From positions 1-46,396 of the IMG/VR virus record IMGVR_UViG_3300042564_005512: 46,396 nucleotides of DNA. One strand, given 5' to 3'. Numbering within the stretch: the stretch's first letter is position 1; each line of letters starts with the position of its first letter. Under the pieces are notes generated by a model. The model did no database searches. It was not told the origin of the DNA and saw only the letters and a list, made by a program, of their open reading frames with translations. The position numbers and the translations under genes are program-made. Shown here in pieces: positions 9,933 through 45,211 of this stretch. This DNA comes from a virus.

Positions 9933-11411
9933 ATGAATAAGAAAACTATCATAGATAAAATTTTGAATGAGTCAATCGATGACAAAATTAATGAATTGAC
10001 ATCAAGACTTGAAGAAAAAATTAATATTTTAGAAGTTGATGCTTATGATTTAGAATATGAACAGACATATGTTTTTGATAGTGTTAATGGAAAACCTAAA
10101 AGAGTAATTTTTAAAGGTAGAGGTAGAAAAGGTAGGAGTGATTCTGAAACCCAAACTTATCATTTTGAAGATGATAGAGGTAACGATATAATGTTATCAA
10201 AAAAAGGAGTGTTGAATAAAATAAAAAATGTAGATAAAGAAATGAAAAAAGAAAATGACGAGTTTACCGAGGGTAATGCTTTCACAAAAAAATTGAAAGA
10301 TACCAAAAAAGGTGGTGAATTTAAAATTGGAAATAAAACTTATGTTGACAAATCAGAATTAGAAGAAAAACTATATGGTGGTCAAAAAAAGTTAGACAAA
10401 AATAACAATAATAAAATTGACTCTGAGGATTTTAAAATGTTAAGAAAGCATAATAAATCTGAAATTGAAGAGTTAGGTGGTATGGATGATGTACACCCAA
10501 GATTTGGAAAGAAAAATTTTGGAAAAATGAGTTATGATGAGATAATTGGTCTTTTAACTCAAAAATTGGAAGATGATGAGGATGAAAGTGGGACGAAAAC
10601 CAATAATAGTGACCGTTTGGAAGAAGCTAAAAAATTTATTCAGAAAGCGGTAAATAAAATGGGAAAGAAAGGTACCTCAGGTGCTAAAAATGAGTCAATT
10701 ATGTATAAATTAGCATTAACTGAAAACACAACAATGGATTTAACTGAAGATGAGTTGATTGATATGATTGAGGAATTAGTTATTGAAGCGAAAGAAAATG
10801 AAAAGTTTTCAGGTAAGGCTAAAGGTACAGTTGAATATGAAAGAATTTCAAAATTGAATAAGAAAGAAAATAGTGACGCGTTAAAAGACGTAGATAAAAA
10901 AATGAGAGAATATCTCAAAGATGGTTCAAAGGGACAGTACAATACAAACCCTAAATTTTTTCCAAAAAATAACGGACAATTGGCTAAAATGGATAAAAAG
11001 GCTTATATCCCTTCCGATGCGGTTAATGATTATGTGGACAATTTAACGGCTGCGGCACTTGAAAACATTGATTATGATGGAATAAATCCTGACGAGAAAT
11101 GGGTAACTGATAATATTGAAGGTTCTTCAAGAACTGGTAACAATCCAGGATGGGCGAACACAGGAGAATCCGATGTTAACAAAAAAAGAAATAAGATTAG
11201 AAAAGATAATTTGTTATCTAAAATTAAAAGAAAGGCTTATAATAAATCCGCTCAACCAATTGTTAAAGATTCTTCAGGTGAACAAACGGATAAGGCAAGT
11301 AAATTAATGATGAAGTTAGAGTCAACTTTTGAAAAAGAACAAAATAATTTAATTAGTGAAGAGTTCAGTAAAATTATGAACCTTATGAGTTACAATAAAA
11401 AAACTCAATAA
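9933..11411 (+). CDS. large charged protein with leader peptide and EF-hand-like loop, 492 aa
   Basis: It opens with a leader-like segment (MNKKTIIDKILNESIDDKINE) containing an LNE site at residues 11-13. Residues 155-166 (DKNNNNKIDSED) fit the 12-residue EF-hand or dockerin calcium loop. A second leader-like stretch lies inside the chain near residue 260 (LALTENTTMDLTEDEL). The rest is very hydrophilic with many K, D, E and N. I do not recognise the whole. Size, charge and promoter suggest a late, packaged or scaffold-type protein. ATG 9933 is preferred to 9915 because the TATTTATA motif would otherwise fall inside the gene. Confidence 0.65.
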   Translation: MNKKTIIDKILNESIDDKINELTSRLEEKINILEVDAYDLEYEQTYVFDSVNGKPKRVIFKGRGRKGRSDSETQTYHFEDDRGNDIMLSKKGVLNKIKNVDKEMKKENDEFTEGNAFTKKLKDTKKGGEFKIGNKTYVDKSELEEKLYGGQKKLDKNNNNKIDSEDFKMLRKHNKSEIEELGGMDDVHPRFGKKNFGKMSYDEIIGLLTQKLEDDEDESGTKTNNSDRLEEAKKFIQKAVNKMGKKGTSGAKNESIMYKLALTENTTMDLTEDELIDMIEELVIEAKENEKFSGKAKGTVEYERISKLNKKENSDALKDVDKKMREYLKDGSKGQYNTNPKFFPKNNGQLAKMDKKAYIPSDAVNDYVDNLTAAALENIDYDGINPDEKWVTDNIEGSSRTGNNPGWANTGESDVNKKRNKIRKDNLLSKIKRKAYNKSAQPIVKDSSGEQTDKASKLMMKLESTFEKEQNNLISEEFSKIMNLMSYNKKTQ

Positions 11412-11438
11412 CATACACGATTTATTAAATCTTATTAT

Positions 11439-11471
11439 ATTCTCCATAGTATCCCTATGGAGAATTTTTTT
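11439..11471 (+). terminator. perfect hairpin plus T-run that contains the start codon of gene 11457
   Basis: Arms 11439-11449 and 11455-11465 are perfectly complementary (11 bp) with a five-base loop, and T residues run to 11471. The ATG at 11457 lies in the 3' arm. It can end transcription of gene 9933 and would also bury the next start codon. Confidence 0.75.
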
Positions 11472-11936
11472 AACTACATATCAAAACCAGTTACTGAAGA
11501 CGAGTTTAGTCTTTGGTATGAATCTAATAATATAATTTTTGAAAGGCTCGAAGTCTATCAGGATTTTGTTGTTTCATTAGTCCTTATGATTATGGATACG
11601 TACTTAGGGGATGATGGAGATGAGAACGCAGAAACTAAAATTAGGTTAACCAAAGATGAAAAAGACGACCATTTTGAATGGTGTTGGAATAAAGTGGTTA
11701 ATAACTTCTCAAAGGAAAACATCATGATAGAACAAGATGGAGAACACAAGGTATTCCTTAAAGACTTCATATTTGAAATCTATTACGAACAAAAAAATAA
11801 ATACATCAAAGATTCAATGATTAAGTTTTTTCAAGATGTATTTAAACTTGGAACGGTAATAACTAAATCCGACTTAGATTTAATAACAACAATTTATAAA
11901 ACATTTAATCGAAGTACTAAATTTAGATTTACATAA
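11457..11936 (+). CDS. hypothetical protein, 159 aa
   Basis: The protein is mostly helical and acidic, with a hydrophobic helix around residues 38-50 (FVVSLVLMIMDTYL) that is too short and too mixed to be a clear membrane span. No family is recognised. The only good start is the ATG inside the hairpin 11439-11465, so translation would depend on opening that structure or on a transcript starting inside it. Confidence 0.65.
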   Translation: MENFFNYISKPVTEDEFSLWYESNNIIFERLEVYQDFVVSLVLMIMDTYLGDDGDENAETKIRLTKDEKDDHFEWCWNKVVNNFSKENIMIEQDGEHKVFLKDFIFEIYYEQKNKYIKDSMIKFFQDVFKLGTVITKSDLDLITTIYKTFNRSTKFRFT

Positions 11937-11972
11937 ACAAAAAAAATAGTATTTTTTTAAAAAAATAAACTT

Positions 11973-12152
11973 ATGGAAACAACTATTGAAAAAATCAAAG
12001 CTTTAACAGAGTCTCTTTCAGGTGATGTCACTAAATTCAATAACGGGAATAATAGTGCTGGGACTAGAGCTAGAAAAACATCACAAGAATTAAAATCATT
12101 ATTACAAACTTTAAGAGGTGAAATTCTTGAAAAAAGAAAAGAAGAAAAATAA
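11973..12152 (+). CDS. histone H1-like (Hc1 family) DNA-binding protein, 59 aa
   Basis: The core segment NGNNSAGTRARKTSQELKSLL matches the conserved NGNKAAGTRARKA...L pattern of the small histone H1-like proteins (Hc1 family) common in Bacteroidetes, as remembered. A short helical N-terminus and a lysine/glutamate tail (RGEILEKRKEEK) complete it. Such proteins bind DNA non-specifically. Here it could help compact phage DNA or alter the host nucleoid. The frame starts at ATG 11973 and ends two bases before the next ATG, which supports it being a real gene. Confidence 0.75.
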   Translation: METTIEKIKALTESLSGDVTKFNNGNNSAGTRARKTSQELKSLLQTLRGEILEKRKEEK

Positions 12153-12154
12153 TA

Positions 12155-12337
12155 ATGGATTTTAATATTTTGTATAAGTTCTTTTGGGTATTTTCACTCT
12201 TGTATAGTGGAACGTTTTTAATACGATTTATATTTTCGATTTTTAAAACAGTTCCTGAAAAAATACAAGTGGGTTATTGGGAAAGAATTTTTCTTTACAT
12301 TAATATTTCTTACTTTATAACTTATTTAATAAAATGA
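12155..12337 (+). CDS. two-span membrane protein, 60 aa
   Basis: Two hydrophobic segments, about residues 5-30 and 44-59, are separated by a short loop with charged residues (KTVPEKIQ), giving a hairpin topology. It is unrecognised. Its end overlaps the next gene by four bases. Small two-span proteins can be holins, but no lysis gene is adjacent, so no function is assigned. Confidence 0.6.
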   Translation: MDFNILYKFFWVFSLLYSGTFLIRFIFSIFKTVPEKIQVGYWERIFLYINISYFITYLIK

Positions 12338-12777
12338 AAATGTTTGATTACTTAAAAAAAATTGGACCTTATTTCTTTCAGTTAAGAAAATTGGAAGACT
12401 ATTTGGTTTTTGATGTTTTATTTCCTAGTTCTTGGAAATTACCCAAAAGATTTATACAAGAAGATAAATTTATTAATAATGGTGAAACTGATAAAGAAGA
12501 ATTATCATTATCATTTATTACTGATTTTACCGAAAGTGGGGTTGATTTAATGTACCAAAATATTATTGGTATTATTAATTTTAATATTGAAAGAGAGGAA
12601 AAAGAAAGATTACTTGATGAAAAAATTGGTGAATTAAAAAAATTGTTTGATTCACAAAAATTAGAAAACTTAAAAGAATTAAAGTTTGACATTAACCAAT
12701 TTAAAGAACCTGTAAATGAAACACTCAAACGTGGAAACAGAACTAAATCTACTTCAGAAATCACAACTGAAGAATGA
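12334..12777 (+). CDS. hypothetical protein with C-terminal coiled coil, 147 aa
   Basis: The N-terminal 60 residues include aromatic and hydrophobic positions (YFFQLRKLEDYLVFDVLFP) and the region 80-130 is a charged helix with heptads (EREEKERLLDEKIGELKKLF). No family is recognised. It overlaps both neighbours, a tight arrangement typical of phage early or middle gene runs. Confidence 0.6.
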   Translation: MKMFDYLKKIGPYFFQLRKLEDYLVFDVLFPSSWKLPKRFIQEDKFINNGETDKEELSLSFITDFTESGVDLMYQNIIGIINFNIEREEKERLLDEKIGELKKLFDSQKLENLKELKFDINQFKEPVNETLKRGNRTKSTSEITTEE

Positions 12778-12901
12778 GTTAGATATTGAAAATTATAAAA
12801 GTAGTTTAATACAAGAGATTAAAACTCTAAAAAAAGAAGATATAGTTAAAACAGAGAAACTTACATTATGGAGGAGAATCAAGATAATATTGGGTTTGTA
12901 G
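12716..12901 (+). CDS. small helical protein ending in a basic-hydrophobic tail, 61 aa
   Basis: The chain is a charged helix followed by KLTLWRRIKIILGL, an amphipathic tail that could touch the membrane or a partner. The overlap of 62 bases with the preceding gene is long, so the true start may be further in, but no better start codon is visible. It overlaps the next gene by 34 bases. Function is unknown. Confidence 0.5.
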   Translation: MKHSNVETELNLLQKSQLKNELDIENYKSSLIQEIKTLKKEDIVKTEKLTLWRRIKIILGL

Positions 12902-18532: not shown

Positions 18533-21500
18533 TTAAGCTAATAAAACTTTGTAAGAATTTCCGTTAATTCTTATTTCCCAAGTCCTTGAGGAACTGCACG
18601 ACTCAGTTGTTATAGTACCAATAGGAATTGAGGAACTACCTACAACAAATTGATTATTTCCAGTTGCCGTAGCATAACCACCAAGAATAATTGAATAATT
18701 ATAATTTCCTGAATTTGTATTATTACCAATTGCAATATTTCGGTACCCTGAGGTGTTTTGATATAATGATTTATATCCAAGTGCAATATTTGATTGTCCA
18801 TAGTTAGAAAATAAAACACAATAGCCCAATCCAATATTATGAGAACCACCATTACTTCCATACATTGATTTAAGACCTAAAAGAATATTATAACTACCAC
18901 CGCAAGACGTTCTTCCAAAACTATAATATCCAATAGCAATGTTGTGATTTCCAACAGGTACTGGACCAGTATAACCAATTGATTTAGTCCCTATTGCAAT
19001 GTTATTATTACCTCCATTAGCCCTATATAGAGCACCACTACCTATTGCAACATTTTCACTGCCATATACATTAAAAGTGAGAGTATTATGTCCTAAACTC
19101 ACATTTAAATTTCCATAATAGTTGCAAGATTGAGATTCTTGCCCTATCGCAATATTACCTGAAAATTTTGAGTAATTTGTTGTGTAGTACGGCGCTCCTG
19201 AGTTTGTTGTACCACCATATAGGGAATTCAATCCGATTGCAATATTTGATAGTCTACTTTCACCACCAACCCAATCATGTAATGTATTGGGCCCAATTGC
19301 TATATTATCAGATTTTTTGTCCGATTTACGAAGTGATTGATAACCTATCGCAATATTTCTAACCCCATCAGTATTATAACATAACGCCTGATTACCAATT
19401 GCAATGTTGTCTCTACCTGTACTTGTATAGTATAATGAGTTATATCCTAATGAAATATTGTTACTACCTGTTGTAATTTCTCCACCTGAATTTCTACCTA
19501 ACGCAATGTTGTGTACACCTGTAGTATTACTATATAAAGAACTTCTACCTATTGCAATATTATAATTACCCGTAAAATTGTTGGCCATTGTACCTCTACC
19601 TAACGCAACATTACCACAACCTTGGTTGGAATAACATCCTGAATTACTCATCAAAGCTCTTCTACCAATTGCAATATTTTCACAACCATTATTATTATTT
19701 AACATTGAACACCTACCAATTGCAACGTTAAAATCAGGTTTTGGTCCTTGTGCTCCTGTATTGTAATACAATGCCGCCTGACCAATTGCAATGTTATGGT
19801 CTGAAGCCGAAGTATTGTTTCTTAAAGAATCATATCCGATTCCAATATTACCAATACCACTTGTTAAACAATTCGAGTTTTGTCTTATAGCATTAGTCCC
19901 AATTGCAATATTCTTGGAACCGTTGGGATTACAATACAATGATGTAACACCTAAGGAAATATTATCATCACCTGCACATTTATTTTTTTGACTTTTGAAA
20001 CCCAATGCAATGTTACGAGAAAAACTAATTGAACATCCGTAACCATATAACGCATAATCACCTATACCGATATTACAATAACCTGTAGACAACTTTTTTA
20101 AAGAATTAGTACCTATCCCAATATTACGAGAAATACTAGTCCCCTCACGTAATGATTTATCACCAATTGCAATATTTCCAAACATACATTGAGAGATATT
20201 ATAAAGAGAAGAACTCCCCATAGATATGTTATTATTCCCACATGCTTGGTACATATTTTTATATCCAATGGATATATTGTAATTCAGGCCATAACATACT
20301 GATTGAGAACTGGACATAGATTTATGACCTAAGGATATGTTAAAATCACCTATGGTTTTACTTCTTAAAGACTTATACCCAATTGATGTATTACCTTGTC
20401 CAAGATTACTTGTTTGTGACTGTTGTCCTATCGCAATGTTATTCCCTCCAGGAGCCACTCCACTAAATGCAACACCACCAATTGATATATTAGTACATAC
20501 GTTAAAATTACCTCTACCAACACGAACACCATTCACATTCAACGTTGGTGAGGTTGCGGCACCATCAAATGTTAACAATGATTCTGCAACTGCGCCTCCA
20601 CTACCATCAGATGTTAAAACCTGATTGTTTGAACCTGGCACCGTGAACTGAGGTGACCCACTAAAAACTAATGTATTTGTTGACGCTGAAGTAATTGATA
20701 TATTAACACCACTAAAATTTATAAAAGTTCCAGTATTTGCGGAGAATTGTGTGGTACCACTAATTCTTACAGATTGAAATGATGATGGTAAGTTTTGATA
20801 TGTGGTTGCAGATATTGTAGTTGCAGTTAATCCTTGTAGTGAAGTATTTCCTGTTACGGTTAAGTTGCCATTAATAGTTCCACCACTTTTATCAAATTTA
20901 TTACTTATATCGGTTTGAATTGTTTGAATTATTGAACATCCGCTTAATGTACCACAAGTCAAAGCCGAATTGTCTGAAAATGGTGTTATTCCATAAGAAT
21001 AATGTTGGGTACCTTCAGTGACTAAAGTTATTGAATGTGATTGATTACTAGTATTCGTTGCTCTTACTTTTACAACAATTCTGTCAGTTGTATTTATTGA
21101 TGAACCCGAATAATATCCGTCCGTTAATTGCATTGATGGATTTGGGGAATTTGTAGTTACTGGAGCCGGGTCAGTTGTAACAAGTAGAGTTTCGGTTCCC
21201 CCTGTGGTTCTTAAATAAACCTCACAGAATATATCAAAAGATGCGTTACTATTTTGTTTGAAAGAATGAAGATAAAAGCTCCAATATCCTGCAGGTATTA
21301 GAGATGCGTTTGGATATCCAGTTGGTGTTTGAAATGAGGTAATCGTACTAGTTACTCCATTGTTAATTGTAACAGCCGTTATTTGTTGTGAATTTGTTGT
21401 TCCACTTGGACTAAATTCTCTATATGGTGGTTGTGAGTTTGATAAATTTAAATAATATACTTGACCTCCAGGTCCTCCTATTGGAAGTCCAGTAACCGTA

Positions 21501-21916
21501 AAAGTTCCTCCTGTATTATTTAAAAAGGTAATTTCTCCATTTGTATAAGTTCCTCCTGTAACATAAACATCGGTTGGTAAATTCTGATAAGTTGTTGCTG
21601 AAATTGTGTTAGCAGTTAGTCCACTTTGGAATATAGTCCCCCCCGATACAGTTCCACCACTTAACGGAAGATATACACCTGTTGTTCCTCCAGCAGGACC
21701 CCAATTGGCGTTACCTGAAGCATCACAAGTTAATACATAACCATTTTGTTCAGTTCCATTAGAATACGTAAATCCACTATTTATAGTAAGTCCCGATAAA
21801 AAGATTGGATTAACAGGAATGGCTCCACCGATACGATAAACAATACCTGTTGATAAGTCAGATTGTAAGACGTAATTATAAGAATCTTTAATTAATTGGT
21901 TTTTAATATCGGCCAT
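18533..21916 (-). CDS. long tail-fibre/adhesin-like protein with about 33 short beta-roll repeats
   Basis: This is the largest gene in the window at 1127 residues. Residues 1-110 look like a virion-attachment region. Residues about 110-460 are Gly/Thr/Ser-rich and beta-structured. From about 475 to 1085 there are some 33 copies of a degenerate unit beginning N-[IV]-[AGS]-[ILM]-G followed by a short variable loop. The unit recalls the YadA-type head repeats of trimeric adhesins, so a trimeric left-handed beta-roll is likely. The last 40 residues (RTWEIRINGNSYKVLL) form a cap; no S74 peptidase motif is visible. It is probably a host-recognition fibre. A TATTTATA motif precedes it by 28 bases. 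Confidence 0.85.
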   Translation of the reverse strand: MADIKNQLIKDSYNYVLQSDLSTGIVYRIGGAIPVNPIFLSGLTINSGFTYSNGTEQNGYVLTCDASGNANWGPAGGTTGVYLPLSGGTVSGGTIFQSGLTANTISATTYQNLPTDVYVTGGTYTNGEITFLNNTGGTFTVTGLPIGGPGGQVYYLNLSNSQPPYREFSPSGTTNSQQITAVTINNGVTSTITSFQTPTGYPNASLIPAGYWSFYLHSFKQNSNASFDIFCEVYLRTTGGTETLLVTTDPAPVTTNSPNPSMQLTDGYYSGSSINTTDRIVVKVRATNTSNQSHSITLVTEGTQHYSYGITPFSDNSALTCGTLSGCSIIQTIQTDISNKFDKSGGTINGNLTVTGNTSLQGLTATTISATTYQNLPSSFQSVRISGTTQFSANTGTFINFSGVNISITSASTNTLVFSGSPQFTVPGSNNQVLTSDGSGGAVAESLLTFDGAATSPTLNVNGVRVGRGNFNVCTNISIGGVAFSGVAPGGNNIAIGQQSQTSNLGQGNTSIGYKSLRSKTIGDFNISLGHKSMSSSQSVCYGLNYNISIGYKNMYQACGNNNISMGSSSLYNISQCMFGNIAIGDKSLREGTSISRNIGIGTNSLKKLSTGYCNIGIGDYALYGYGCSISFSRNIALGFKSQKNKCAGDDNISLGVTSLYCNPNGSKNIAIGTNAIRQNSNCLTSGIGNIGIGYDSLRNNTSASDHNIAIGQAALYYNTGAQGPKPDFNVAIGRCSMLNNNNGCENIAIGRRALMSNSGCYSNQGCGNVALGRGTMANNFTGNYNIAIGRSSLYSNTTGVHNIALGRNSGGEITTGSNNISLGYNSLYYTSTGRDNIAIGNQALCYNTDGVRNIAIGYQSLRKSDKKSDNIAIGPNTLHDWVGGESRLSNIAIGLNSLYGGTTNSGAPYYTTNYSKFSGNIAIGQESQSCNYYGNLNVSLGHNTLTFNVYGSENVAIGSGALYRANGGNNNIAIGTKSIGYTGPVPVGNHNIAIGYYSFGRTSCGGSYNILLGLKSMYGSNGGSHNIGLGYCVLFSNYGQSNIALGYKSLYQNTSGYRNIAIGNNTNSGNYNYSIILGGYATATGNNQFVVGSSSIPIGTITTESCSSSRTWEIRINGNSYKVLLA
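18690..20490 (-). repeat. coding tandem repeat array of the fibre gene
   Basis: About 33 diverged copies, spaced mostly 36-75 bases, are recognisable on the plus strand by CCNATTGCAATATT-like words that encode N-I-A-I-G. Copies differ in loop length and content, so the array is ancient or selected for diversity rather than a fresh slippage product. Confidence 0.85.
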
Positions 21917-23663: not shown

Positions 23664-23670
23664 TATTTAT
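23664..23670 (+). promoter_or_regulatory. TATTTAT motif upstream of gene 23687
   Basis: TATTTAT lies 16 bases before ATG 23687, directly after the methylase stop. The last A of the full motif is missing. Confidence 0.4.
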
Positions 23671-23686: not shown

Positions 23687-25048
23687 ATGAAATTTACAAA
23701 TTTATTAAAGTCGCTTATTGTCGAAAATTCAAGATTTAAGCTACTATATGACAAACTTGTTCAAAAAACTGAAAAAGATAAGAAGGAAGGTAAGAAAATT
23801 CCGTTTGAAATATTAAAAGCATTGATATTTGCTGACCCAGATACTAAAATACCAAGAGGTATGGAAGGTGATATTGACACATTAACTCCTGAACAAATGG
23901 ATAATGTGAAGGTTGGTAAATACACACAGTGGTTATTGAAAAGTTTTATCGCTCCAACATCTGCAACTATTACTGCTGAAGTTGGTACTCCTGAGTATAA
24001 AAAACAATTGAAAAATTTCAGAGATTTGTTTTTGGAGGATTTATATAAGACAACAACTGACCTCAAAAAATTTGAAAAATATAAAGGTAGATTACCTGAA
24101 GATTCAAGAGATATTAATAAGTTAACTCCTGAAACTTTATTTAACTTAGTTAAAGATTTTTCTTTAGAAAAAGTTAAAGCTAGTAAAGAAGAGAAAAAAC
24201 AAGCTGCTACGACATATTCACATCCTGGTGGTGACATTGTATTTAAAGGTCCTAATTGGACTGTCATTAAAATTGAAAGACAGGATAAATTAGGTAAAGA
24301 TGCTGCATGTTTCTATGGTGGACAACATGAGTATGATAAAGGTGAATCAAGATGGTGTACATCATCACCTGGGTTGACTTATTTTGAAAGATATATTAAG
24401 GATGGTCCTTTATATGTAATTTTACCTAATGATGCTGAACAACGTGGACAAGTTTCACAATTACCTGTCGATAGATATCAATTCCATTTCCCATCTAATC
24501 AGTTTATGGATAGACATGACCACAACCAAGATTTAGTAAAATTATTGAGTCCTGGTGGTAAACTTGCAGAGATTGCTGATTATTTAAAACCTGAATTTGC
24601 AAAAGGATTTAAAACTCAGGGAGGTAAAAAGGTTGAAATTAATATTCCTGATAGTTCAGCAGGTAAGTTTATTGCGATTTACGGACCTAAAGAACTTTTT
24701 GATAACTTACCTGACGATGTTGAACATTTATTGATTCAAAATAGAAGTGATAGAAATTTAGGATGGAAATCTGACGTTTTAATGGGTATTGGAAGATTTA
24801 ACAATTTGGAGGCGTTAATGTTGAAAAATTGTGTAGACGAAGTTCCTGAAACTTTATGTAATTGTAACCAACTTACTTTATTAGCGTTACCTAATAACCC
24901 TAATTTAAAGAGTATTCCGGCATGTGTTGGAGATTTTGAAAACTTGGCTTTCATTAACTTAAAAGACAGTAACAAAAACGTACATATTCCTGAAGAGTTG
25001 AAATCAAAACTTGACGACCAAGGTGATGGTTTTTATTACATTATGTAA
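23687..25048 (+). CDS. leader-bearing protein with WCT domain and leucine-rich repeats, 453 aa
   Basis: The start MKFTNLLKSLIVENSRFKLL is one of the shared leaders, with a possible cleavage site at IVE (residues 11-13). The middle of the protein (about 180-290) carries ACFYGG, RWCTSSPGLTYFERYI and GPLYVILPND, a pattern seen in other large-phage proteins without known function. Residues about 340-440 form three to four leucine-rich-repeat-like units (LEALMLKNC, LTLLALPNN, LAFINLKDS), suggesting a protein-binding surface. If the leader targets it to the capsid, it could be an injected host-interacting protein. Confidence 0.65.
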   Translation: MKFTNLLKSLIVENSRFKLLYDKLVQKTEKDKKEGKKIPFEILKALIFADPDTKIPRGMEGDIDTLTPEQMDNVKVGKYTQWLLKSFIAPTSATITAEVGTPEYKKQLKNFRDLFLEDLYKTTTDLKKFEKYKGRLPEDSRDINKLTPETLFNLVKDFSLEKVKASKEEKKQAATTYSHPGGDIVFKGPNWTVIKIERQDKLGKDAACFYGGQHEYDKGESRWCTSSPGLTYFERYIKDGPLYVILPNDAEQRGQVSQLPVDRYQFHFPSNQFMDRHDHNQDLVKLLSPGGKLAEIADYLKPEFAKGFKTQGGKKVEINIPDSSAGKFIAIYGPKELFDNLPDDVEHLLIQNRSDRNLGWKSDVLMGIGRFNNLEALMLKNCVDEVPETLCNCNQLTLLALPNNPNLKSIPACVGDFENLAFINLKDSNKNVHIPEELKSKLDDQGDGFYYIM

Positions 25049-31663: not shown

Positions 31664-31670
31664 TATTTAT
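31664..31670 (+). promoter_or_regulatory. TATTTAT motif for gene 31676
   Basis: TATTTAT ends five bases before ATG 31676, in the short-spacing class shared with the other leader-bearing genes. Confidence 0.5.
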
Positions 31671-31675
31671 TTAAT

Positions 31676-32956
31676 ATGAATAGTAGAAACTTAATAAAAA
31701 AATTCATTAAAGAACTGGTTTTAGAATCTGAAAATGATATTGTACATTTAACACCTGAGAAATATATTGAGTTAATGAATTTTGTTGACCATGACGGAAG
31801 AAGAATTAATAATTTGAAAAAATATAAAGGAAAACAAATTGTTATTGACGGTAATATAAAACTACCAAGTGATACAACTTATTTAGGTAATATTACTGTT
31901 AATGGTAGTGTTGATGCGAATTACAGTCAGCTAAGAACTAAACAAGGAGTTATTGCTAATTACATATCATATTATAATACACCTCTTAAAAAACAAGAAA
32001 TCTATCAAGAATTCCAAAGAAGAAAGGAGGTTCAGAATGATAGAAGAGAGGAAGGTTATTTTGAAGAAAGGGGAGATTTATCTGATGTTGATAAATGCAC
32101 ATTAGCATTATTTAATTTTTTAATATCAACTGTATATGAAGAGAAAACACCTGAAGATACACAAAGATTAGAGGACCTTTACGCTGAAAAAGAAAGAAGA
32201 GAACAAATAGAGAAAGAGACGGAAGATGATGAGAATCTAACAGAACTTAGAGCGATTGACATCGAAATAGAAGAAATTGAAGGTCGTATTGACATTTATG
32301 ATATTATCTACGAAGGTAAACATTATTTCTTACATTCATTCAAAGTTTTAGAGAGTGATGGTGAGAGTCGTGCAACATGGGCGGTTGGTGATGAATATTA
32401 TACTGAAAAAACGGCATATAAAACAGTTGAAAACTTAATTGATGATGTCGGACTGGAAGGATTTAGAACAGGATTTGTTGAGAATCATATTGATGAAGAA
32501 GAATTGAAAAATTACTTTAGAGAAAGTGAGGAAGATTATGTTAGAGAAAATTTAGAAGATTTCTTTGATGAAGATGATTTTGAATATTCTGACTCAGAAG
32601 TCCAACAAAGAATTGATGAGATTACTGAAATGCTGGAAGATTCTGAGAACTTATCACAAGAACAATATGACGAATTAAATGAAGAGTTGGACGAGTTAAA
32701 AGATAGTGATAAAACTATACCTGAAAATTTGATTGAAGAAAAGGTTGAGAGTTTGTTGGAGGATAAAACTTATGATGCGGCTACAACAATTAGAGATTAC
32801 GGTCTAAATATGCAAGATTTTGTTGATATGGGCGCGTTAATTAAAGATGTTGTTGATACTGACGGATATGGGAATACAATTAATTCATACGATGGTACAG
32901 AAGATACTGTTGAGTTTGATAACGAAACATACTATATTTTCCAAATAGATGGTTGA
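31676..32956 (+). CDS. leader-bearing, very acidic protein, 426 aa
   Basis: The start MNSRNLIKKFIKELVLESEN is a shared-type leader with a possible VLE site at residues 15-17. Residues about 55-85 have a strand-repeat look (GNIKLPSDTTYLGNITVNGSV). From residue 150 on the chain is extremely acidic, with long D/E-rich helices. No family is recognised. The acidity could mimic DNA or keep it soluble inside a packed capsid. It is head-to-head with the other large acidic gene. Confidence 0.65.
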   Translation: MNSRNLIKKFIKELVLESENDIVHLTPEKYIELMNFVDHDGRRINNLKKYKGKQIVIDGNIKLPSDTTYLGNITVNGSVDANYSQLRTKQGVIANYISYYNTPLKKQEIYQEFQRRKEVQNDRREEGYFEERGDLSDVDKCTLALFNFLISTVYEEKTPEDTQRLEDLYAEKERREQIEKETEDDENLTELRAIDIEIEEIEGRIDIYDIIYEGKHYFLHSFKVLESDGESRATWAVGDEYYTEKTAYKTVENLIDDVGLEGFRTGFVENHIDEEELKNYFRESEEDYVRENLEDFFDEDDFEYSDSEVQQRIDEITEMLEDSENLSQEQYDELNEELDELKDSDKTIPENLIEEKVESLLEDKTYDAATTIRDYGLNMQDFVDMGALIKDVVDTDGYGNTINSYDGTEDTVEFDNETYYIFQIDG

Positions 32957-37675: not shown

Positions 37676-37682
37676 TATTTAT
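37676..37682 (+). promoter_or_regulatory. TATTTAT motif for gene 37688
   Basis: TATTTAT ends five bases before ATG 37688 and lies just after a terminator, which supports a new start of transcription. Confidence 0.5.
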
Positions 37683-37687: not shown

Positions 37688-38758
37688 ATGAAAGTTATTC
37701 TTAAAGAGAGTCAATTCGGAAAATTATTGAATGAAGCTAAAGGTGTTAACGAGGCTTCAATAGAATATGTTAACTTATTATATAAAATCATTGAACCTAA
37801 GGTAATTGAAATGATTTCAATTGGTAAAAATGATACTGATGAATTTTACGTTGAGGGGAATGAAATTTTAAAAAAATTCAGAAATAATTTAGACACATAT
37901 TATGAGTTCCCAATAGAATATCTTGACGTTGATTTAACTTTTAAAGTTACCAAGAAAAAACCTGAAAACGGGTTAACGTTCTCCACTGGTGGCGCGGCTT
38001 ATCCAGTTACTCTTGATTCTAGTGGAGGTTCATATCTTAAAGAACCTGATGAAGATTTACCTGTAAAAGTTTTAAAAAATGTAGATAAAACAATCTACGC
38101 TAAATTTGAGTTTGAGGTTTATATTAATATTGAGTTTGATTTTAGTCAGATGAATGAATTATTGTTTGATTTAAGAGATACTATAACTCACGAATTAAAT
38201 CATATGTACGAATTCTATAATAGAGTTCAAAAAACTCCACCTTCTGAAGTTAGTTTAGCAAAATCTTTTTCCGGAGGTAAAAATATTAACACCCCTAAAA
38301 AAATATTTAAAGTTTACACCAAGTTTTTAGATTATTTATATTATTCTGAACCATGGGAAATAAATGCTAATGTTCAAGAGGCGTATTCTAAAATACTTAG
38401 AATGTCATGGGAAGAATTTAAAAAAACAAACCAATATAGAATTGCCGATGAGATGGAAAACTATAGTGGTGAAAAAATGTTTGATGAGTTATATAATGCA
38501 ACAATGGAGAGAAGTCCTGAAGCAGTTCTTTTTCATATTAGAAATTTACATAAATTTTATTTGAAACAATATTTGGAATATATTGTCGCTGAGAGAGGTG
38601 ATAAGATTAAAAATGAGGAAGAATTATTGAGAGACGAAGTTTTCAAAACTAAAAATATTTTAGAATTGTTTAAAAAGTTTGAGTCAAGAATCAATAACGC
38701 AGGTAAAAAGTTAAAAAGAAACTATGCCAGATTAATGACAATTGAAAGAGATGAATGA
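37688..38758 (+). CDS. leader-bearing zinc metalloprotease-like protein, 356 aa
   Basis: The start MKVILKESQFGKLLNEAKG is a shared-type leader with LNE at residues 14-16. H168-E-L-N-H172 is a zincin HExxH motif, and E224 in EPWEINANVQEAY is a likely third zinc ligand. The domain could cut host cell-envelope or cytoplasmic proteins, or a virion protein during assembly. The 356 residues have a beta-rich N-terminal part and a helical C-terminus. A start at 37652 is unlikely because it would swallow the promoter motif. Confidence 0.75.
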   Translation: MKVILKESQFGKLLNEAKGVNEASIEYVNLLYKIIEPKVIEMISIGKNDTDEFYVEGNEILKKFRNNLDTYYEFPIEYLDVDLTFKVTKKKPENGLTFSTGGAAYPVTLDSSGGSYLKEPDEDLPVKVLKNVDKTIYAKFEFEVYINIEFDFSQMNELLFDLRDTITHELNHMYEFYNRVQKTPPSEVSLAKSFSGGKNINTPKKIFKVYTKFLDYLYYSEPWEINANVQEAYSKILRMSWEEFKKTNQYRIADEMENYSGEKMFDELYNATMERSPEAVLFHIRNLHKFYLKQYLEYIVAERGDKIKNEEELLRDEVFKTKNILELFKKFESRINNAGKKLKRNYARLMTIERDE

Positions 38759-39152
38759 TAAATTACATAAAATTAATAAGTTTATCGAAGGTAAAACTTT
38801 TGTTTACGACCATGATGTTAGGTTTAATCAAAACCCTGTAAAGGTTTACTACCAATTTCATATTGATGGGGTTAAAAGATTGATTTCAATAGGAGAATGG
38901 AAAGACCATCTTTTTGTTTCGGTTAAAATTGTAAATGGGGAAGGGATGGTTAATCTGTATCTTAGTCATTTCAAAAATCAAAGAATTGTGGGAAGAGAGT
39001 CAGTTTCTAATAACTGGTTTGAGTTCTCCGTTCAGACGGGTCAAGATATTGAATCTTTTTTAAATTTTTTTAATATTGATATGAAAGTTGTAATTGATAC
39101 GATTGAATTTGAACCAAATAAAGATTTTAAATCATTTTTAAAAGATGAGTAA
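38742..39152 (+). CDS. hypothetical protein, 136 aa
   Basis: A small beta-rich protein (VKVYYQFHIDGVKRLISIG, LFVSVKIVNGEGMVNLYL) with a helical tail. It is unrecognised. It overlaps the metalloprotease gene by 17 bases, and an ATG at 38751 is a possible shorter start. It may be a partner or inhibitor of the protease, from position only. Confidence 0.6.
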   Translation: MKEMNDKLHKINKFIEGKTFVYDHDVRFNQNPVKVYYQFHIDGVKRLISIGEWKDHLFVSVKIVNGEGMVNLYLSHFKNQRIVGRESVSNNWFEFSVQTGQDIESFLNFFNIDMKVVIDTIEFEPNKDFKSFLKDE

Positions 39153-39636
39153 ATTTATAATTACAGAAGAAGAGAAAAAAAATATTTTATCGCAATATAA
39201 TTTAATTAATGAACAAGATTACGGAGCTCAAAGATTAAATTTGGGGGAGATTTCTGGTAAAACTTACGAATTTTATTTACAACCAGGTAAAAAAAGTGAA
39301 GAATTTAAGTTTACAGATTCCTCACAACCGCACCCAACACCTAAAGCTTATTTACCAAAAGGTAAAAATAGATTTTTAATTAGTCCAAAAACACTTACTT
39401 ATTGGAGTGGTGAGACTCAAATGAATTATTCGTTTGTAACTAAACCAATAACTGATGGTAGTGAAACTTATTCTTCAACTTCTTTATACACTGATAAAAA
39501 TATGATACAAACGTCTCAATTTTTATTGACAATCGCTTATAAGCCGGACTCACCAAAGTCTAAGTGGAGAAATGAAAGATTCTATGCTTACAGTGACGAT
39601 TTAAAGAATGATATGGTGGCTAACAAATTAATCTAA
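39145..39636 (+). CDS. leader-bearing beta-rich protein, 163 aa
   Basis: The start MSKFIITEEEKKNILSQYNLINEQ is a leader of the same type, with INE at residues 21-23. The rest is predicted beta structure with many aromatic and serine residues (KTYEFYLQPGKK, TYWSGETQMNYSF). No family is recognised. It is the third gene of the transcript that starts at the TATTTAT motif 37676. Confidence 0.65.
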   Translation: MSKFIITEEEKKNILSQYNLINEQDYGAQRLNLGEISGKTYEFYLQPGKKSEEFKFTDSSQPHPTPKAYLPKGKNRFLISPKTLTYWSGETQMNYSFVTKPITDGSETYSSTSLYTDKNMIQTSQFLLTIAYKPDSPKSKWRNERFYAYSDDLKNDMVANKLI

Positions 39637-40462: not shown

Positions 40463-41167
40463 ATGAAAAAAATAATACTATACACACTAATCTTAATTTT
40501 ACCAATTTTCATTTGTGCTAAAATTGTAAGTACCTATTCAAATGACTATTCATGTGAATATTTTTCTATTAAGTCTAGTAATAAGTTTCACGTAATTACT
40601 TTTAAAAAAGATAAAGTTAAGTTTGGAGTTTCAAACTCTACAAAAGGTAACTTTAATTTTTATGTGAATTCAAATTTCTTTGGTACCAATGGTAAAGCCA
40701 TCGGTGGAGTTGTGATGGATGGTAAAAGAAAAAGTCAAAGAGTTAATAAAGGAGGGTCATTCATTGTTAAAGATGGTAAACCAAATATTGTTTTTGGTTC
40801 AGTGGATAATTGTCAATACGAATCTCAAAGTATTATATGGGTTTTAAAAAACGGAGTAAAGAATACTGGTATGTTAAAACAACCACATGCTAAAGAAAAA
40901 GTTATGCGTCTTTTGATGGGTAAAAACAAAAAAGGTGAAATTGTTGTAATCCATTCTAATCAATATATTTTAGTAACAATGTCTGAAATAGTTAATGTAG
41001 CGGTTGATAATGGAGTGACAGATGCTATAATTTTAGATAGTGGTTCTTCTGTTGATTTAATGTTAACTAACGGAAGTTTTTCACATAGTGTGAAGTCAGT
41101 ACCTTCTGAAATTAAAGGTTTGGTTGGTATTAAAGAACCACCTGTTTACATTACAGGGTCTTTTTAA
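40463..41167 (+). CDS. secreted phosphodiester glycosidase-like protein (NAGPA family)
   Basis: A signal peptide (IILYTLILILPIFICA) leads into a NAGPA-type domain: FYVNSNFFGTNGKAIGGVVMDG near residue 70, GGSFIVKDGKPNIV near 95, and AIILDSGSSVDLML near 195, the D-x-G-x-S signature of the family. Members split sugar-1-phosphodiester bonds; in bacteria related proteins act on cell-wall glycopolymers and exopolysaccharides. Here it could modify the host surface or help release. The stop overlaps the convergent transglycosylase gene by four bases. Confidence 0.8.
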   Translation: MKKIILYTLILILPIFICAKIVSTYSNDYSCEYFSIKSSNKFHVITFKKDKVKFGVSNSTKGNFNFYVNSNFFGTNGKAIGGVVMDGKRKSQRVNKGGSFIVKDGKPNIVFGSVDNCQYESQSIIWVLKNGVKNTGMLKQPHAKEKVMRLLMGKNKKGEIVVIHSNQYILVTMSEIVNVAVDNGVTDAIILDSGSSVDLMLTNGSFSHSVKSVPSEIKGLVGIKEPPVYITGSF

Positions 41168-42051
41168 CCACAAGTGAATCTTTTAATATTTTTTGCAACT
41201 TCTTTAACATAACCGTGAGTTGAGATGTTTACACTATCCCATCTTTCGGTTGTGTAGTTTGGTAGATAATTAACGGCTTTTTTATCTTTATAAATTTGAA
41301 GACCTGACTTTGTTTGTGAGTCAGAACATTTACCTTTAATTTTTGGGTCAGTTGTTTCACAATACGGTGTAATATAAGATGGACCCAAATTAAAAGTTGC
41401 AATTGCCATATCTAAAGCCGCATTACCGGTCCCCTCTTTAAAATTAGAGGATGGTTGATTCTGAGCATATCCGATACTAACTAGTTTGTCGTAATTATTT
41501 TTAATAATATTGTATGCTGCCCTTAAAGACCCTATAGTTGTATATAAATCGTCGACTGGTATTCCAATCTCCTTGGCTGTTTCAGGTCTTATTTGTGCGT
41601 ATCCAATAGAACTATCACCACCTAATTTTTGCCATAATTGTTTAAGTGGGCCTAAATATTTGTATCTATCACTTGTCCCAAAGGTGGTTTCTCTACCAAT
41701 GATTCCTAAAGCAGTCTTTAAAATATTGGTATTTAAACCTTCTTTTTTTAGAGTAAAATAAGCGTGTCTGAAAAGATAAGGAATACAGGCAATTTGTTGA
41801 TATTTAGAAGTCAATATAGTTGGAACTGGACTACCATCCTTCATTATTGGATTTTTATTTTTATCTAATTCTTTTGGGTACTGTTGTTCTGAATATGACG
41901 GAAAAAGTTTTTTTGCTTCAATTCCTTGGTAAGGTCCGTTTATCAAAGTGTAACCACCTTTTTTATTAGATTGATAAACCCATTGTTCATTTAAAACTTT
42001 TTTAACTAATTTAACAATGTCTGATTCTGTAAGTTTGATAATTCTACTCAT
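41164..42051 (-). CDS. leader-bearing lytic transglycosylase (SLT-type), 295 aa
   Basis: The start MSRIIKLTESDIVKLVKKVLNEQ is the clearest example of the shared leader, with LNE at residues 20-22. The catalytic glutamate is E121 in ALGIIGRETTFG, and SSIGYAQIRPETAKEIG near 148-163 is the following signature of SLT transglycosylases, with an AIATFNLG late motif. It would cleave peptidoglycan. With a capsid- or virion-targeting leader it is likely a virion-associated enzyme used at entry rather than at lysis. The longer frame up to 42183 has a spurious hydrophobic stretch and was not used. Confidence 0.85.
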   Translation of the reverse strand: MSRIIKLTESDIVKLVKKVLNEQWVYQSNKKGGYTLINGPYQGIEAKKLFPSYSEQQYPKELDKNKNPIMKDGSPVPTILTSKYQQIACIPYLFRHAYFTLKKEGLNTNILKTALGIIGRETTFGTSDRYKYLGPLKQLWQKLGGDSSIGYAQIRPETAKEIGIPVDDLYTTIGSLRAAYNIIKNNYDKLVSIGYAQNQPSSNFKEGTGNAALDMAIATFNLGPSYITPYCETTDPKIKGKCSDSQTKSGLQIYKDKKAVNYLPNYTTERWDSVNISTHGYVKEVAKNIKRFTCG

Positions 42052-42056: not shown

Positions 42057-42064
42057 TATAAATA
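42057..42064 (-). promoter_or_regulatory. TATTTATA putative late promoter for the transglycosylase
   Basis: TATTTATA on the minus strand ends five bases before the ATG at 42051. Confidence 0.5.
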
Positions 42065-42097: not shown

Positions 42098-42128
42098 TTG
42101 TTAGAATAAGAAATCTGGTGTATATTTG
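42098..42128 (+). promoter_or_regulatory. Bacteroidetes-type promoter for gene 42160 and perhaps the RNA after it
   Basis: TTG at 42098 and TATATTTG at 42121-42128 are 20 bases apart, with the ATG 31 bases downstream. Confidence 0.75.
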
Positions 42129-42159
42129 TAAAAGAAAATAAAAACAAAAAATAAATATT

Positions 42160-42525: not shown

Positions 42526-42534
42526 TTTGTAAAG

Positions 42535-42947
42535 AAGACCCCACAATACCGATTTATCTGCGGTTGGACAGTGTGAACCTGGCGGGAAGGCTCCAAGGCT
42601 ATGGGGGAGGCTACACAAACTTGAATCAGATACCCCAATTATGGATGGAAGGGGTTAGGGACCTTAAATGGTTGTAATACAATCCACAAGTTGTAGAAAG
42701 ACTGGACAATTCTACAATATACACTCTTCTTACGAGTGAGACCGACCATGTAACTTTGGGGGTAGGGTTAAGATGTCCTGAGGGTAACCCTGTAATATGG
42801 GTGAGAGTAGAGGTCTTCGGTGGATGGTTACTACGGTCCCACTCTCTTGGGGCATATCCGAAGAAATACTATGGATGGTAAATACTACAAACCAAAGGTC
42901 GTCTCGTGAAATACCACACGGACAGAGAAGACGACCTTTACCTTTTT
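42535..42947 (+). ncRNA. second structured RNA, about 410 nt, upstream of clpP
   Basis: Between the stop at 42525 and clpP no credible frame exists. The sequence is richer in G than its surroundings and full of complementary segments: ACCCC/GGGGT (42632/42651), TTGTAGAA/TTCTACAA (42691/42710), CACTC/GAGTG (42722/42734), AGGGTTA/TAACCCT (42764/42785), TCTTCGG/CCGAAGA (42814/42858). It ends with a perfect 11-bp stem AAAGGTCGTCT/AGACGACCTTT (42894/42929) followed by a short T-run. It could be an independent RNA processed from the 42160 transcript or a 5' regulatory region of clpP. It does not match tmRNA, RNase P or SRP RNA landmarks I know. Confidence 0.65.
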
Positions 42948-42951
42948 AAAA

Positions 42952-43680
42952 ATGAATATGAATTACGGAAAAGAGTTTAGAAAGTATGCTATGAGTGAGG
43001 GGATTTCCTCGTTGAATTTGGATAGATTTGAAAATGCTTTAACACCTTATGTGTTAGAGGAAAGAGAATTAAGAGCGACTCAGATTGATATCTTCTCACG
43101 ATTAATGAGAGAAAGAATTTTGTGGGTATCGGGAGCGGTTAACCAACATATGTCAGATATTGTTCAGGCTCAGTTGTTATTTTTGGACTCGGTTGAACAA
43201 CGTGATATTACATTATACATTAACTCACCTGGTGGTTCGGTTCTTTGTGGACTAGGAATTGTTGATTTGATGAACTATATTAAGTCAGATGTTGCAACAA
43301 CAAATATTGGAATGTGTGCGTCTATGGGGTCGGTCTTACTATCATCAGGTACCAAAGGTAAAAGGTCATCTCTAGTGTATTCAAAAGTAATGACACATCA
43401 GGTAAGTCACGGAACCGAAGGAAATGTTCAGGACACAAGAATTAATCAAATGGAGGCTGAGAAATATAACTACATTTTGTTTAAGATGATTGCCGAGAAT
43501 TGTGGTAAAACGGTTGAGGAAGTGTTGGGGGTTTCAAGAAGAGACAAATGGTTCAACTCGGATGAGGCAAAAGAGTTTGGTTTGATTGATGAGGTAATTA
43601 AGAGTGAGGGAACCAAAACAATTTCTGAGATGTTAGTAGGTTTTGATGACTACTACAACAAGGAAGTTTTTAATAGATAA
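42952..43680 (+). CDS. clpP: ClpP-type serine protease
   Basis: The catalytic triad is in place: S124 in GMCASMGS, H149 in MTHQVSHG, and D198 in SRRDKWF. YINSPGGSV near 89-96 is the oxyanion-hole region. The length of 242 residues includes an N-terminal extension of about 35 residues relative to bacterial ClpP. It may work with host ClpX, alter host proteolysis, or mature virion proteins. It follows the structured RNA 42535-42947 closely, so expression may depend on it. Confidence 0.9.
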   Translation: MNMNYGKEFRKYAMSEGISSLNLDRFENALTPYVLEERELRATQIDIFSRLMRERILWVSGAVNQHMSDIVQAQLLFLDSVEQRDITLYINSPGGSVLCGLGIVDLMNYIKSDVATTNIGMCASMGSVLLSSGTKGKRSSLVYSKVMTHQVSHGTEGNVQDTRINQMEAEKYNYILFKMIAENCGKTVEEVLGVSRRDKWFNSDEAKEFGLIDEVIKSEGTKTISEMLVGFDDYYNKEVFNR

Positions 43681-43688
43681 TATAAAAT

Positions 43689-43763
43689 GAAGAAGTAGCT
43701 CAGCAGGTAGAGCATAGGGACAGAAATCCCTTGTGCCGCGAGGTTCGATTCCCGCCTTCTTCA
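43689..43763 (+). tRNA. tRNA-like element, possibly tRNA-Phe(GAA), with irregular loops
   Basis: A perfect 7-bp acceptor (GAAGAAG/CTTCTTC), a normal D arm (GCTC/GAGC) and a TTCGATT T-loop are present. The anticodon arm AGGGA/TCCCT closes a loop of only six bases (CAGAAA), lacking U33, and the T-stem needs a bulged A (GCG-A-GG/CCCGC). GAA can be read as the anticodon. Function as a decoding tRNA is doubtful; a degenerate or specialised tRNA-like RNA is possible. Confidence 0.6.
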
Positions 43764-43770
43764 CTCTTAA

Positions 43771-43796
43771 AACCGAAGATTTCTTCGGTTTTTTTT
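43771..43796 (+). terminator. intrinsic terminator after clpP and the tRNA-like element
   Basis: AACCGAAG and CTTCGGTT pair over eight positions around a 4-base loop and are followed by a T-run. Confidence 0.85.
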
Positions 43797-43825
43797 GTTT
43801 TAGTAAAAATAATTTTGTAAATTTG
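43795..43825 (+). promoter_or_regulatory. Bacteroidetes-type promoter for gene 43845
   Basis: TTG at 43795 and TAAATTTG at 43818-43825 are 20 bases apart. The -33 element touches the end of the terminator. Confidence 0.75.
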
Positions 43826-43844
43826 TAGAAATAAATAATGGACT

Positions 43845-44063
43845 ATGAAAGGTTGGTATGAAACAATGTTATGGGTAATCGGTGTTATTGACTCTTGTAC
43901 CCATCCCATACAAGATATCGCTTGTCGAAAACTTGTAAAAAATTATTTAACCATGTATGGGAAACAATTAGGTGGACCGACGGGTGATTTATACAGGGCG
44001 ACAGAACAACGTTTAAGAACGGCAATTGATGAAAACAGATACAATAGATTAATCAATCAATAA
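43845..44063 (+). CDS. hypothetical protein, 72 aa
   Basis: A helical protein with a weakly hydrophobic N-terminus (WYETMLWVIGVI), two cysteines and a basic C-terminal helix. It is unrecognised. It begins a promoter-driven unit with the GH73 gene nine bases downstream, so it might be a lysis accessory; that is inference from position. Confidence 0.6.
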   Translation: MKGWYETMLWVIGVIDSCTHPIQDIACRKLVKNYLTMYGKQLGGPTGDLYRATEQRLRTAIDENRYNRLINQ

Positions 44064-44072
44064 AATAATATT

Positions 44073-44645
44073 ATGTATAAATTAAATCATGATTCATTAG
44101 AGTTTGTTAAGGTAAACAAATTTAAATTCTTTTCAAAGATTGGAGTTGTAACAATTACAATGGCTATCCTATCATCACTATTCACCTTTTTTTGGACTAA
44201 ATCTCATATCGTAGAGACGATGACTGAGTATGAAAAAGTATTGTTGGTAGAAGAAGTTAACAAATTCTCGGAAGACAAGATGGTTGAAAAAATCAAAGAA
44301 CTTGGATTTAAATATCCACACGTTGTTATGGCTCAAGCAATCCTTGAGACTGGTAATTTTAAGAGTCCTGTTTTCCAAGAGAACCATAACTTATTTGGAA
44401 TGAAAGAAGCCACAAGCCGATTGAATTTGGCAAAAGGAACCCAAAATAATCACGCATCATATGCAAATTGGGAAGATAGTATTTTGGATTATGCATTGTG
44501 GTGTTCAACATACGCAAACAAAGCACAATCAGAGGACGAGTATTTCCAAATCTTAAATAGTCTTGGTTACGCTGAGGACGGGACATACGAAATGAAACTA
44601 AGAGAAATTATTAATAAGTACGATTTAAAGAATAAGTTTAGTTGA
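44073..44645 (+). CDS. membrane-anchored glucosaminidase (GH73, FlgJ-like), 190 aa
   Basis: A transmembrane segment at about residues 22-42 is followed by a GH73 domain: VMAQAILETGNF with the catalytic E92, HNLFGMK at 105-111, and WEDSILDYALWC near 145. It cleaves N-acetylglucosaminyl bonds in peptidoglycan. The N-terminal anchor is like that of signal-anchor endolysins, which cross the inner membrane without a holin. It is the best lysis enzyme candidate in the window. It shares a host-type promoter with the gene before it. Confidence 0.85.
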   Translation: MYKLNHDSLEFVKVNKFKFFSKIGVVTITMAILSSLFTFFWTKSHIVETMTEYEKVLLVEEVNKFSEDKMVEKIKELGFKYPHVVMAQAILETGNFKSPVFQENHNLFGMKEATSRLNLAKGTQNNHASYANWEDSILDYALWCSTYANKAQSEDEYFQILNSLGYAEDGTYEMKLREIINKYDLKNKFS

Positions 44646-44647
44646 TG

Positions 44648-44655
44648 TATTTATA
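44648..44655 (+). promoter_or_regulatory. TATTTATA putative late promoter for gene 44660
   Basis: TATTTATA ends four bases before ATG 44660 and begins two bases after the previous stop. Confidence 0.5.
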
Positions 44656-44659
44656 GAAT

Positions 44660-45211
44660 ATGAAATACGTCATTACGGAATCTCAACATAGACAAATCAT
44701 AAAAGAAATGAACGAGGAAACCCTTAAAAAGGTTTCAACCAATTGGTTCAAGAAACAAATTGCACGAGGTGAGGACCCACATATTGATGGGTCCTTACTT
44801 ATGTTTTTAGGGATTAAAAAATACTCAACGGCTCACGATAGATTACTTAGGTCATTAAGGGAGTTTTTGGGTAATGGTATATATGAGGCAGCGGACAATA
44901 GGACTAATAAAGTATTTAACACATCTGACTACCCTGAAATATCAGGCGGATATGACTTTAAATTCAAAGTTAATATTGTTGATAGAGACATGTTTCAATT
45001 ATTATTAGGGATTGATGTTTTACCTGGTGGTGAGGTGGATTTAATTATGACAGATGGTGGAGTTCGTGATTTAAAAGATGCAATGCTTGACGATGAAATT
45101 GGAATGGAAATTCACCATGAATCTGCTGATGTAATTTATAGAATCATAGAAGAGGAAATTACTGACTATACTGGATTTAACTGCGTTGTAGAAGACATCA
45201 ATTATATTTAA
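44660..45211 (+). CDS. leader-bearing hypothetical protein, 183 aa
   Basis: The start MKYVITESQHRQIIKEMNEE is a shared-type leader with MNE at residues 17-19. The remainder has a helical part (HDRLLRSLREFLG) and beta strands with acidic turns (YDFKFKVNIVDRDMFQLLLGI). No family is recognised. Its late-type promoter in the close-spacing class groups it with the transglycosylase and metalloprotease genes. Confidence 0.65.
   Translation: MKYVITESQHRQIIKEMNEETLKKVSTNWFKKQIARGEDPHIDGSLLMFLGIKKYSTAHDRLLRSLREFLGNGIYEAADNRTNKVFNTSDYPEISGGYDFKFKVNIVDRDMFQLLLGIDVLPGGEVDLIMTDGGVRDLKDAMLDDEIGMEIHHESADVIYRIIEEEITDYTGFNCVVEDINYI

Follow-up and report, generated by a model that had tools for sequence, protein, structure and literature searches.

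Unrelated proteins of an uncultured giant phage lineage carry a short N-terminal leader ending in a hydrophobic-x-glutamate site: candidate capsid-targeting sequences

The stretch of DNA analysed here, hereafter the window, is a 46,396-base virus fragment (IMG/VR record IMGVR_UViG_3300042564_005512, 30.6% G+C) in which seven genes with differing bodies start with a short leader that ends in (I/L/V/M)-x-E. The initial annotation had described these leaders and proposed that they target the proteins to the capsid; all seven open reading frames (ORFs) and their leaders are present where it had placed them. Six of the genes lie on the plus strand. The leader at 9933-9971 has 13 residues, with a predicted cut after E13 (ILNE|S), and precedes an acidic protein with an EF-hand-like stretch (9933-11411). 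That at 23687-23725, also of 13 residues (predicted cut after E13, LIVE|N), precedes a leucine-rich repeat (LRR)-like protein (23687-25048), and that at 31676-31726, of 17 residues (predicted cut after E17, LVLE|S), an acidic protein (31676-32956). The 16-residue leader at 37688-37735 (predicted cut after E16, LLNE|A) heads a HELNH (HExxH) protein (37688-38758), and the 23-residue leader at 39145-39213 (predicted cut after E23, LINE|Q) a small protein (39145-39636). On the minus strand, a 22-residue leader of the type termed class A below (41986-42051, predicted cut after E22, VLNE|Q) heads a lytic-transglycosylase-like protein (41164-42051). The last leader, at 44660-44716, would have 16 (IIKE|M) or 19 (EMNE|E) residues and belongs to an acidic protein (44660-45211). 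Four window leaders end in N-E (ILNE, LLNE, LINE and VLNE). The long consensus that had been proposed for all seven fits those of 37688, 39145, 42051 (minus) and 44660 well or fairly, while 9933, 23687 and 31676 form a shorter class, already set apart as looser forms. As had also been claimed, the heptamer TATTTAT lies directly upstream of six of the seven genes, 5 to 16 nucleotides before the start: at 9921-9927 (5 nucleotides before 9933), 23664-23670 (16 before 23687), 31664-31670 (5 before 31676), 37676-37682 (5 before 37688), 44648-44654 (5 before 44660) and, on the minus strand, 42058-42064 (6 before 42051). It is absent from this position at 39145.

A tblastn search with the leader peptide found no match at E 10 in a collection of deposited phages, and IMG/VR relatives were therefore used for comparison. 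These relatives were recruited through the gp46-type gene of the window (PHROG match: SbcC-like subunits), which is 60 to 85% identical to theirs; 80 of 136 loci were retained, among them contigs of 240 to 326 kb. Five relatives with contigs of this size (G001, G004, G005, G006 and G007) were profiled, with genes called by a simple script on separate 20 kb tiles, genes that span tile edges being cut or lost.

A seed profile made from the seven window leaders only reached 10 bits or more on 77 of 1,342 N-termini of the five relatives versus 1 of 5,595 internal 50-residue tiles. Without the methionine the same profile and threshold gave 63 of the 1,342 N-termini, 1 of the 5,595 tiles and none of 4,449 segments that follow an internal methionine. 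Enrichment over chance, on which the initial annotation had let its proposal stand or fall, is thus seen with either form of the profile. The leader of 44660 is not among the window N-termini that score with the seed profile. At 10 bits neither form scored on any N-terminus called in the partial genomes of three further T4-like phages, T4 (0/61), Mel-JY01 (0/87) and immuto (0/187); with an iterated profile, one of the 87 Mel-JY01 N-termini scores. At 9 bits or more the iterated profile found 94 leaders among 1,404 N-termini (24 in G001, 17 in G004, 21 in G005, 13 in G006, 16 in G007 and 3 in the window), counts that are likely lower bounds because the profile shifts towards the long classes and misses short leaders such as those of 9933, 23687 and 31676. 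The motif [ILVM]-x-E with its glutamate at residues 12-30 occurs in 83 of these 94 proteins, in 531 of 1,310 other N-termini and in 1,544 of 5,754 internal tiles. The narrower [ILVM]-x-E-[QA] has densities of 38, 53 and 36 per 10,000 positions within the first 30 residues, 7 to 25 in bins over residues 30-160 and 11 past residue 300, and so is roughly three- to fivefold denser in the first 30 residues (about threefold with the profile hits removed). Copies of the leader at C-termini, considered as a general second tag, were rejected, since 2 of 1,113 C-termini reached 8 bits with the methionine-free seed profile.

The bodies behind the leaders are unrelated. Clustering of the 94 leader proteins by body gives 79 groups, and an alignment of 90 of them (one of more than 1,000 residues, one of fewer than 60 and two of about 68 were dropped) has the majority consensus MxKxIxLTESxLxxLxKxxIxE and nearly nothing downstream. 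Class A comprises 40 of the 94 and was chosen by a pattern that requires glutamates at P1 and P14, so that these two columns are no evidence of conservation. The class A leader has at least 483 confirmed matches in the viral collection; the best 80, used for the comparison of bodies, hold 132 leader ORFs in 78 of 79 distinct loci, and the 129 bodies that were long enough form 78 clusters. Among 84,980 prokaryote species genomes the class A leader was found at five loci, all in contigs of metagenome-assembled genomes (MAGs). These contigs (L419-L423), binned to bacterial MAGs (Alphaproteobacteria UBA3650, Bacteroidales and Bacteroidota), hold ORFs headed by a class A leader, which in four contigs is the variant LTESD(L/I)H(R/K)IVK, and are possibly phage contigs within bacterial bins.

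A prohead protease was the other point on which the initial annotation had made its proposal depend, and one is present in the relatives. Of 26 relatives searched for Peptidase_S77, the family of T4 gp21, seven exceed the Pfam cut-off, namely every one whose contig is longer than 240 kb; two of these, G001 and G002, look near-identical, and an eighth, cut contig has a partial match below the cut-off. The protease of G007 matches T4 gp21 in the PDB (5jbl, E 8.5e-18). The viral collection holds at least 599 relatives of the protease. Near the protease gene of the relatives lies a gp23-type capsid gene, whose product starts with a propeptide of about 60 residues. In each of the 44 distinct N-termini, drawn from 69 of 87 loci examined, this propeptide closes with LINE, the next residue being A in 40 (LINE|A) and S in 4 (LINE|S); by analogy with T4 it would be cut there. 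The 39145 leader of the window ends in the identical string, LINE, and the leaders in ILNE, LLNE and VLNE have its last two residues, N-E. We infer from the relatives that the window phage has both a protease and a capsid gene of these kinds.

In orthologues of six of the seven window proteins, the glutamate that ends the leader outlasts changes in the remainder of the leader. The glutamate at P1, on the leader/body boundary, is retained in 15 of 15 sequences for 23687, 10/10 for 37688, 7/7 for 9933, 6/6 for 31676, 4/4 for 41164 and 3/3 for 39145, and P3 is hydrophobic in all seven window families (15/15 for 23687; 7/7 for 9933, window included). These counts omit alignments that start past query residue 90, starts that differ by more than 30 residues, sequences shorter than 40% of the query and those with at least 85 of their first 100 positions identical to a retained sequence; for 9933 this filtering took 46 distinct sequences to 7, the window included, and more divergent orthologues exist. 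The site is kept in the 31676 family despite differing leader sequences. All 12 homologues in the 37688 family have E16, and their residues 2-15 are mostly variable apart from the nearly invariant K2 and E7. Neighbouring paralogues of the 23687 family are seen in L216, L228 and L234, with leader and site in both copies.

An exchange of leaders is seen in a family encoded beside the capsid gene. Its leaders range from 8 to more than 20 residues and include MNKRRINE, MDRINQIVRRVLKE, MKSNFIKECLGNIFNLNE and, in L299, one of class C that resembles the leader of 39145; a hydrophobic-x-E string stands just before a G/S/T-rich stretch of the body in 24 of 24 distinct N-termini, as read by eye, a badly made script pattern having matched 14 of the 24, some of them at other sites. 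As the sequences read, the leader is swapped in this family and the site, with its glutamate fixed at the body boundary, is kept. Both this family (L118:11206-11949) and the window gene at 8989-9903 have a G/S-rich E-A-T/S-G-S-x-S/A-G stretch, often followed by P-L/I; by eye it stands directly after a possible x-E site in what are two different conserved families.

It appears to be the peptide that is preserved. Among class A leaders, DNA identity over codons 1-21, 22-30 and 31-40 is 0.74, 0.41 and 0.29 in G007, 0.74, 0.38 and 0.32 in G005, and 0.60, 0.42 and 0.28 in G001, where the drop is less sharp. Within the 40 class A leaders, identity at codon positions 1, 2 and 3 is 0.703, 0.825 and 0.524; third positions are thus far less identical than second positions, which suggests that selection acts on the leader peptide. 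At the site itself, glutamate occupies P1 and a hydrophobic residue P3, with P2 free to vary. In an AlphaFold model of the 37688 protein, the predicted local distance difference test score (pLDDT) is below 50 at residues 1-19 and 184-193 and at least 70 over most of the rest; in the 41164 model, which has low confidence (mean pLDDT 65), a predicted helix at residues 9-22 stops at the site.

The upstream heptamer accompanies the leader in the relatives also. TATTTAT lies within 30 nucleotides upstream of 61 of the 94 leader genes versus 233 of 1,310 others (Fisher p 8e-22), and within 35 nucleotides of 19 of 23 class A leaders in three relatives (G007, G005 and G001). Over the whole window it is not above chance (41 occurrences versus 34.8 expected; 15 of 100 shuffles reach 41). 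Its placement relative to start codons in the window, G001 and G004-G007 is non-random, with peaks at 4-6 and 13-17 nucleotides and smaller ones near 28-29 and 43-44. It is also found before genes that resemble terminase or tail genes by position and size only and are labelled putatively as such. TATTTAT is probably a late promoter; with a following A, it reads as the T4 late promoter TATAAATA in reverse complement.

The cargo is diverse, and part of it is recognisable. Among the 90 leader proteins Pfam recognised 12 families in total, with one or two members each, among them phage lysozyme, L,D-transpeptidase, C39-type peptidase, peptidoglycan-binding domains and MORN repeats. PHROGs gave several endolysin families and an 'internal virion lysozyme motif' (1.8e-5), with one member each, and PADLOC a single weak hit (LmuB, 3.2e-5). 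One leader protein has a weak Pfam match to phiKZ_IP (E 0.0013), below the cut-off. For the window proteins, the labels given by the initial annotation prove weaker than it had claimed. The HExxH motif of the 37688 protein stands, being invariant in 12 homologues; its body fold has no PDB match at E 0.001. The EF-hand match of 9933 (E 0.0055) and the LRR match of 23687 (E 0.027) are both below Pfam cut-offs, and the transglycosylase label has weak fold support, the Foldseek comparison of the 41164 body with MltF/MltD giving E 0.04, a probability of up to 0.95 and a TM-score of at most about 0.33.

Our results suggest that the leaders are very probably capsid-targeting sequences of a giant T4-like phage, as had been proposed: N-terminal enrichment, a gp21-type protease in the relatives, a capsid protein with a site of the same type, retention of the glutamate at P1 in orthologues, leader swapping and the shared upstream motif all support this. 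The leader, a short amphipathic segment of 13-25 residues as a rule, would dock cargo that is made late on the core of the prohead, and the shell would close around the docked protein. The gp21-type prohead protease would then cut after (I/L/V/M)-x-E, the kind of site that ends the capsid propeptide, and the mature cargo would be freed inside the head and later ejected into the next host with the DNA.

Several points weigh against this interpretation. Core docking, cleavage, presence in the head and ejection are steps that we infer, and no virion proteomics for these phages was found in the open literature. The window fragment was seen to hold neither a protease nor head or capsid genes. [ILVM]-x-E alone is frequent, as the 531 of 1,310 non-leader N-termini with such a string at residues 12-30 indicate, and pooled counts are only partly independent because the relatives share orthologues. 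Of the seven window leaders, just three reach 9 bits with the iterated profile. Eleven of the 94 leader proteins have no second x-E site within residues 12-30; five of these are small M-K-Y/V-x-ITE-type proteins, which may be cut earlier or remain uncut, and a few of the others may be false profile hits. In the 44660 family the site is not fixed, E19 being retained in 2 of 4 sequences; alternatives read by eye near residue 16 (IKE, LIE, LKE and LME) suggest a site at E16 instead. Finally, nine T4 head proteins score 2.2 bits or less with the profile; the likeness to T4 is therefore one of mechanism, not of membership by sequence.

It is also possible to explain the leader in other ways. An uncut docking helix for virion assembly, at core, shell or tail, with the glutamate as part of a binding surface, would agree with the helix-like class A leader and its recurring hydrophobic positions, and with the 11 proteins that have no second site. 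We nevertheless consider it unlikely. A free P2, a hydrophobic P3 and a glutamate at P1 (the last demanded by the class A pattern) are the pattern of a protease site, a string of this kind also closes the capsid propeptide, and the glutamate stays at the body boundary, however long the leader is, in the family encoded next to the capsid gene. The presence of this kind of leader on a gene beside the capsid gene also speaks against a basic amphipathic helix that would direct proteins to the membrane or envelope of the host and serve lysis or envelope functions while infection proceeds. The wall enzymes and wall binders among the cargo (phage lysozyme, L,D-transpeptidase, peptidoglycan-binding domains and the transglycosylase-like protein) would suit such a role, but a wall-related Pfam domain was found in just a few of the 90 proteins scanned, and it would be left unexplained why the leader ends at a fixed glutamate and why this end resembles the capsid site; we regard membrane targeting as very unlikely.

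The recurrence of a promoter-like motif and leader before unrelated bodies, with TATTTAT close upstream of most class A leaders, could reflect recently copied promoter-start cassettes whose peptide has no function. Such cassettes would not be expected to show the gap in identity between codon positions 3 and 2, which points to a selected peptide, and divergent orthologues retain the site; this explanation is extremely unlikely. We give next to no credence to chance or to a compositional bias of AT-rich, lysine- and glutamate-rich proteins: x-E sites are indeed common in these proteins, but the 77 scoring N-termini stand against a single internal tile, and the 63 found with the methionine-free model against no segment after an internal methionine.

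There is an even chance that the leaders form a modular, expandable delivery code. A cassette of late promoter and leader could then be placed before any gene, and each virion would ship at least two dozen different proteins into the host; wall hydrolases, peptidases and probably anti-defence factors would be among them, and the set would differ between close relatives. Few phage effectors are as poorly known as the proteins injected when infection begins. Recognising the leader from sequence would directly list candidate injected proteins of giant uncultured phages, and would allow a test of whether phages swap cargo by moving the promoter-leader cassette. Elsewhere in the window, a 1,127-residue protein (18533-21916, minus strand) with many GNxNIAIG-type repeats appears fibre-like by eye and has no Pfam match.

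As far as the open PubMed Central papers on T4, giant phages, phage P1 and other phages could be seen in part, they contained no printed account of this leader. Capsid-targeting sequences as such are known from T4. T4 sequences read MKTYQEFIAE|A on internal proteins IPII and IPIII, SFLTE|A in gp23 and MAKINELLRE on gp24, the bars marking the cut places in IPII, IPIII and gp23. The site of gp21 is given as L/I-x-E in the accessible parts of PMC9026906. According to the portions available of PMC12373910, the N-terminal leader is the sole common part of the T4 internal proteins, which are packaged and injected; many T-even ip genes were found through the leader signal; and defence enzymes are by now known as the targets of each of the three T4 proteins. 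It is because T4 internal proteins share only their leader and are packaged and injected that we assign the present leaders to a kind already known. Like IPI, IPII, IPIII and Alt of T4 (Tequatrovirus), the window proteins and their relatives combine a short N-terminal leader, unrelated bodies, an (L/I)-x-E site and a gp21-type protease, and the type of site is common to leaders and capsid proteins (gp23 and gp24 in T4), as excerpts of PMC9026906 and PMC12373910 describe. The leader sequence is not that of T4, where none of 61 N-termini from 60-110 kb reached 6 bits with the profile, IPI, IPII and IPIII included at 0.0 bits or less each. Also unlike T4, each relative has 13-24 profile-positive genes, compared with three internal proteins and Alt, the cargo includes recognisable wall enzymes and a peptidase, and the lineage is a giant, uncultured one.

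The giant phages phiKZ and SPN3US offer a second comparison, drawn from partial texts of PMC9026906 and PMC5694885. In these phages many head proteins are cut after glutamate by a gp21-related protease, and two SPN3US paralogues have an identical 15-residue N-terminus in common. The site motif differs, being S/A-x-E in phiKZ and A-x-E in SPN3US versus I/L-x-E here, as does the length of what is removed: several SPN3US propeptides exceed 100 residues, and the leaders here would mostly measure 13-25. Among the nearest cultured phages by capsid protein is an Immutovirus, Flavobacterium phage vB_FspM_immuto_2-6A (immuto). It has an annotated prohead protease. By eye, IVSE|A stands in the equivalent position of its capsid N-terminus, and several short leader-like N-termini lie near the head module. 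Unlike in the window group, none of its 187 N-termini, called in 150 of 160 kb, reaches 10 bits. The main text of an open paper on Baltic Flavobacterium phages mentions neither immuto nor mass spectrometry. What distinguishes the present system from those already known is the sequence of the leader, the number of genes per genome that carry it, the swapping of leaders among orthologues, the enzymes among the cargo and the lineage in which it is found.

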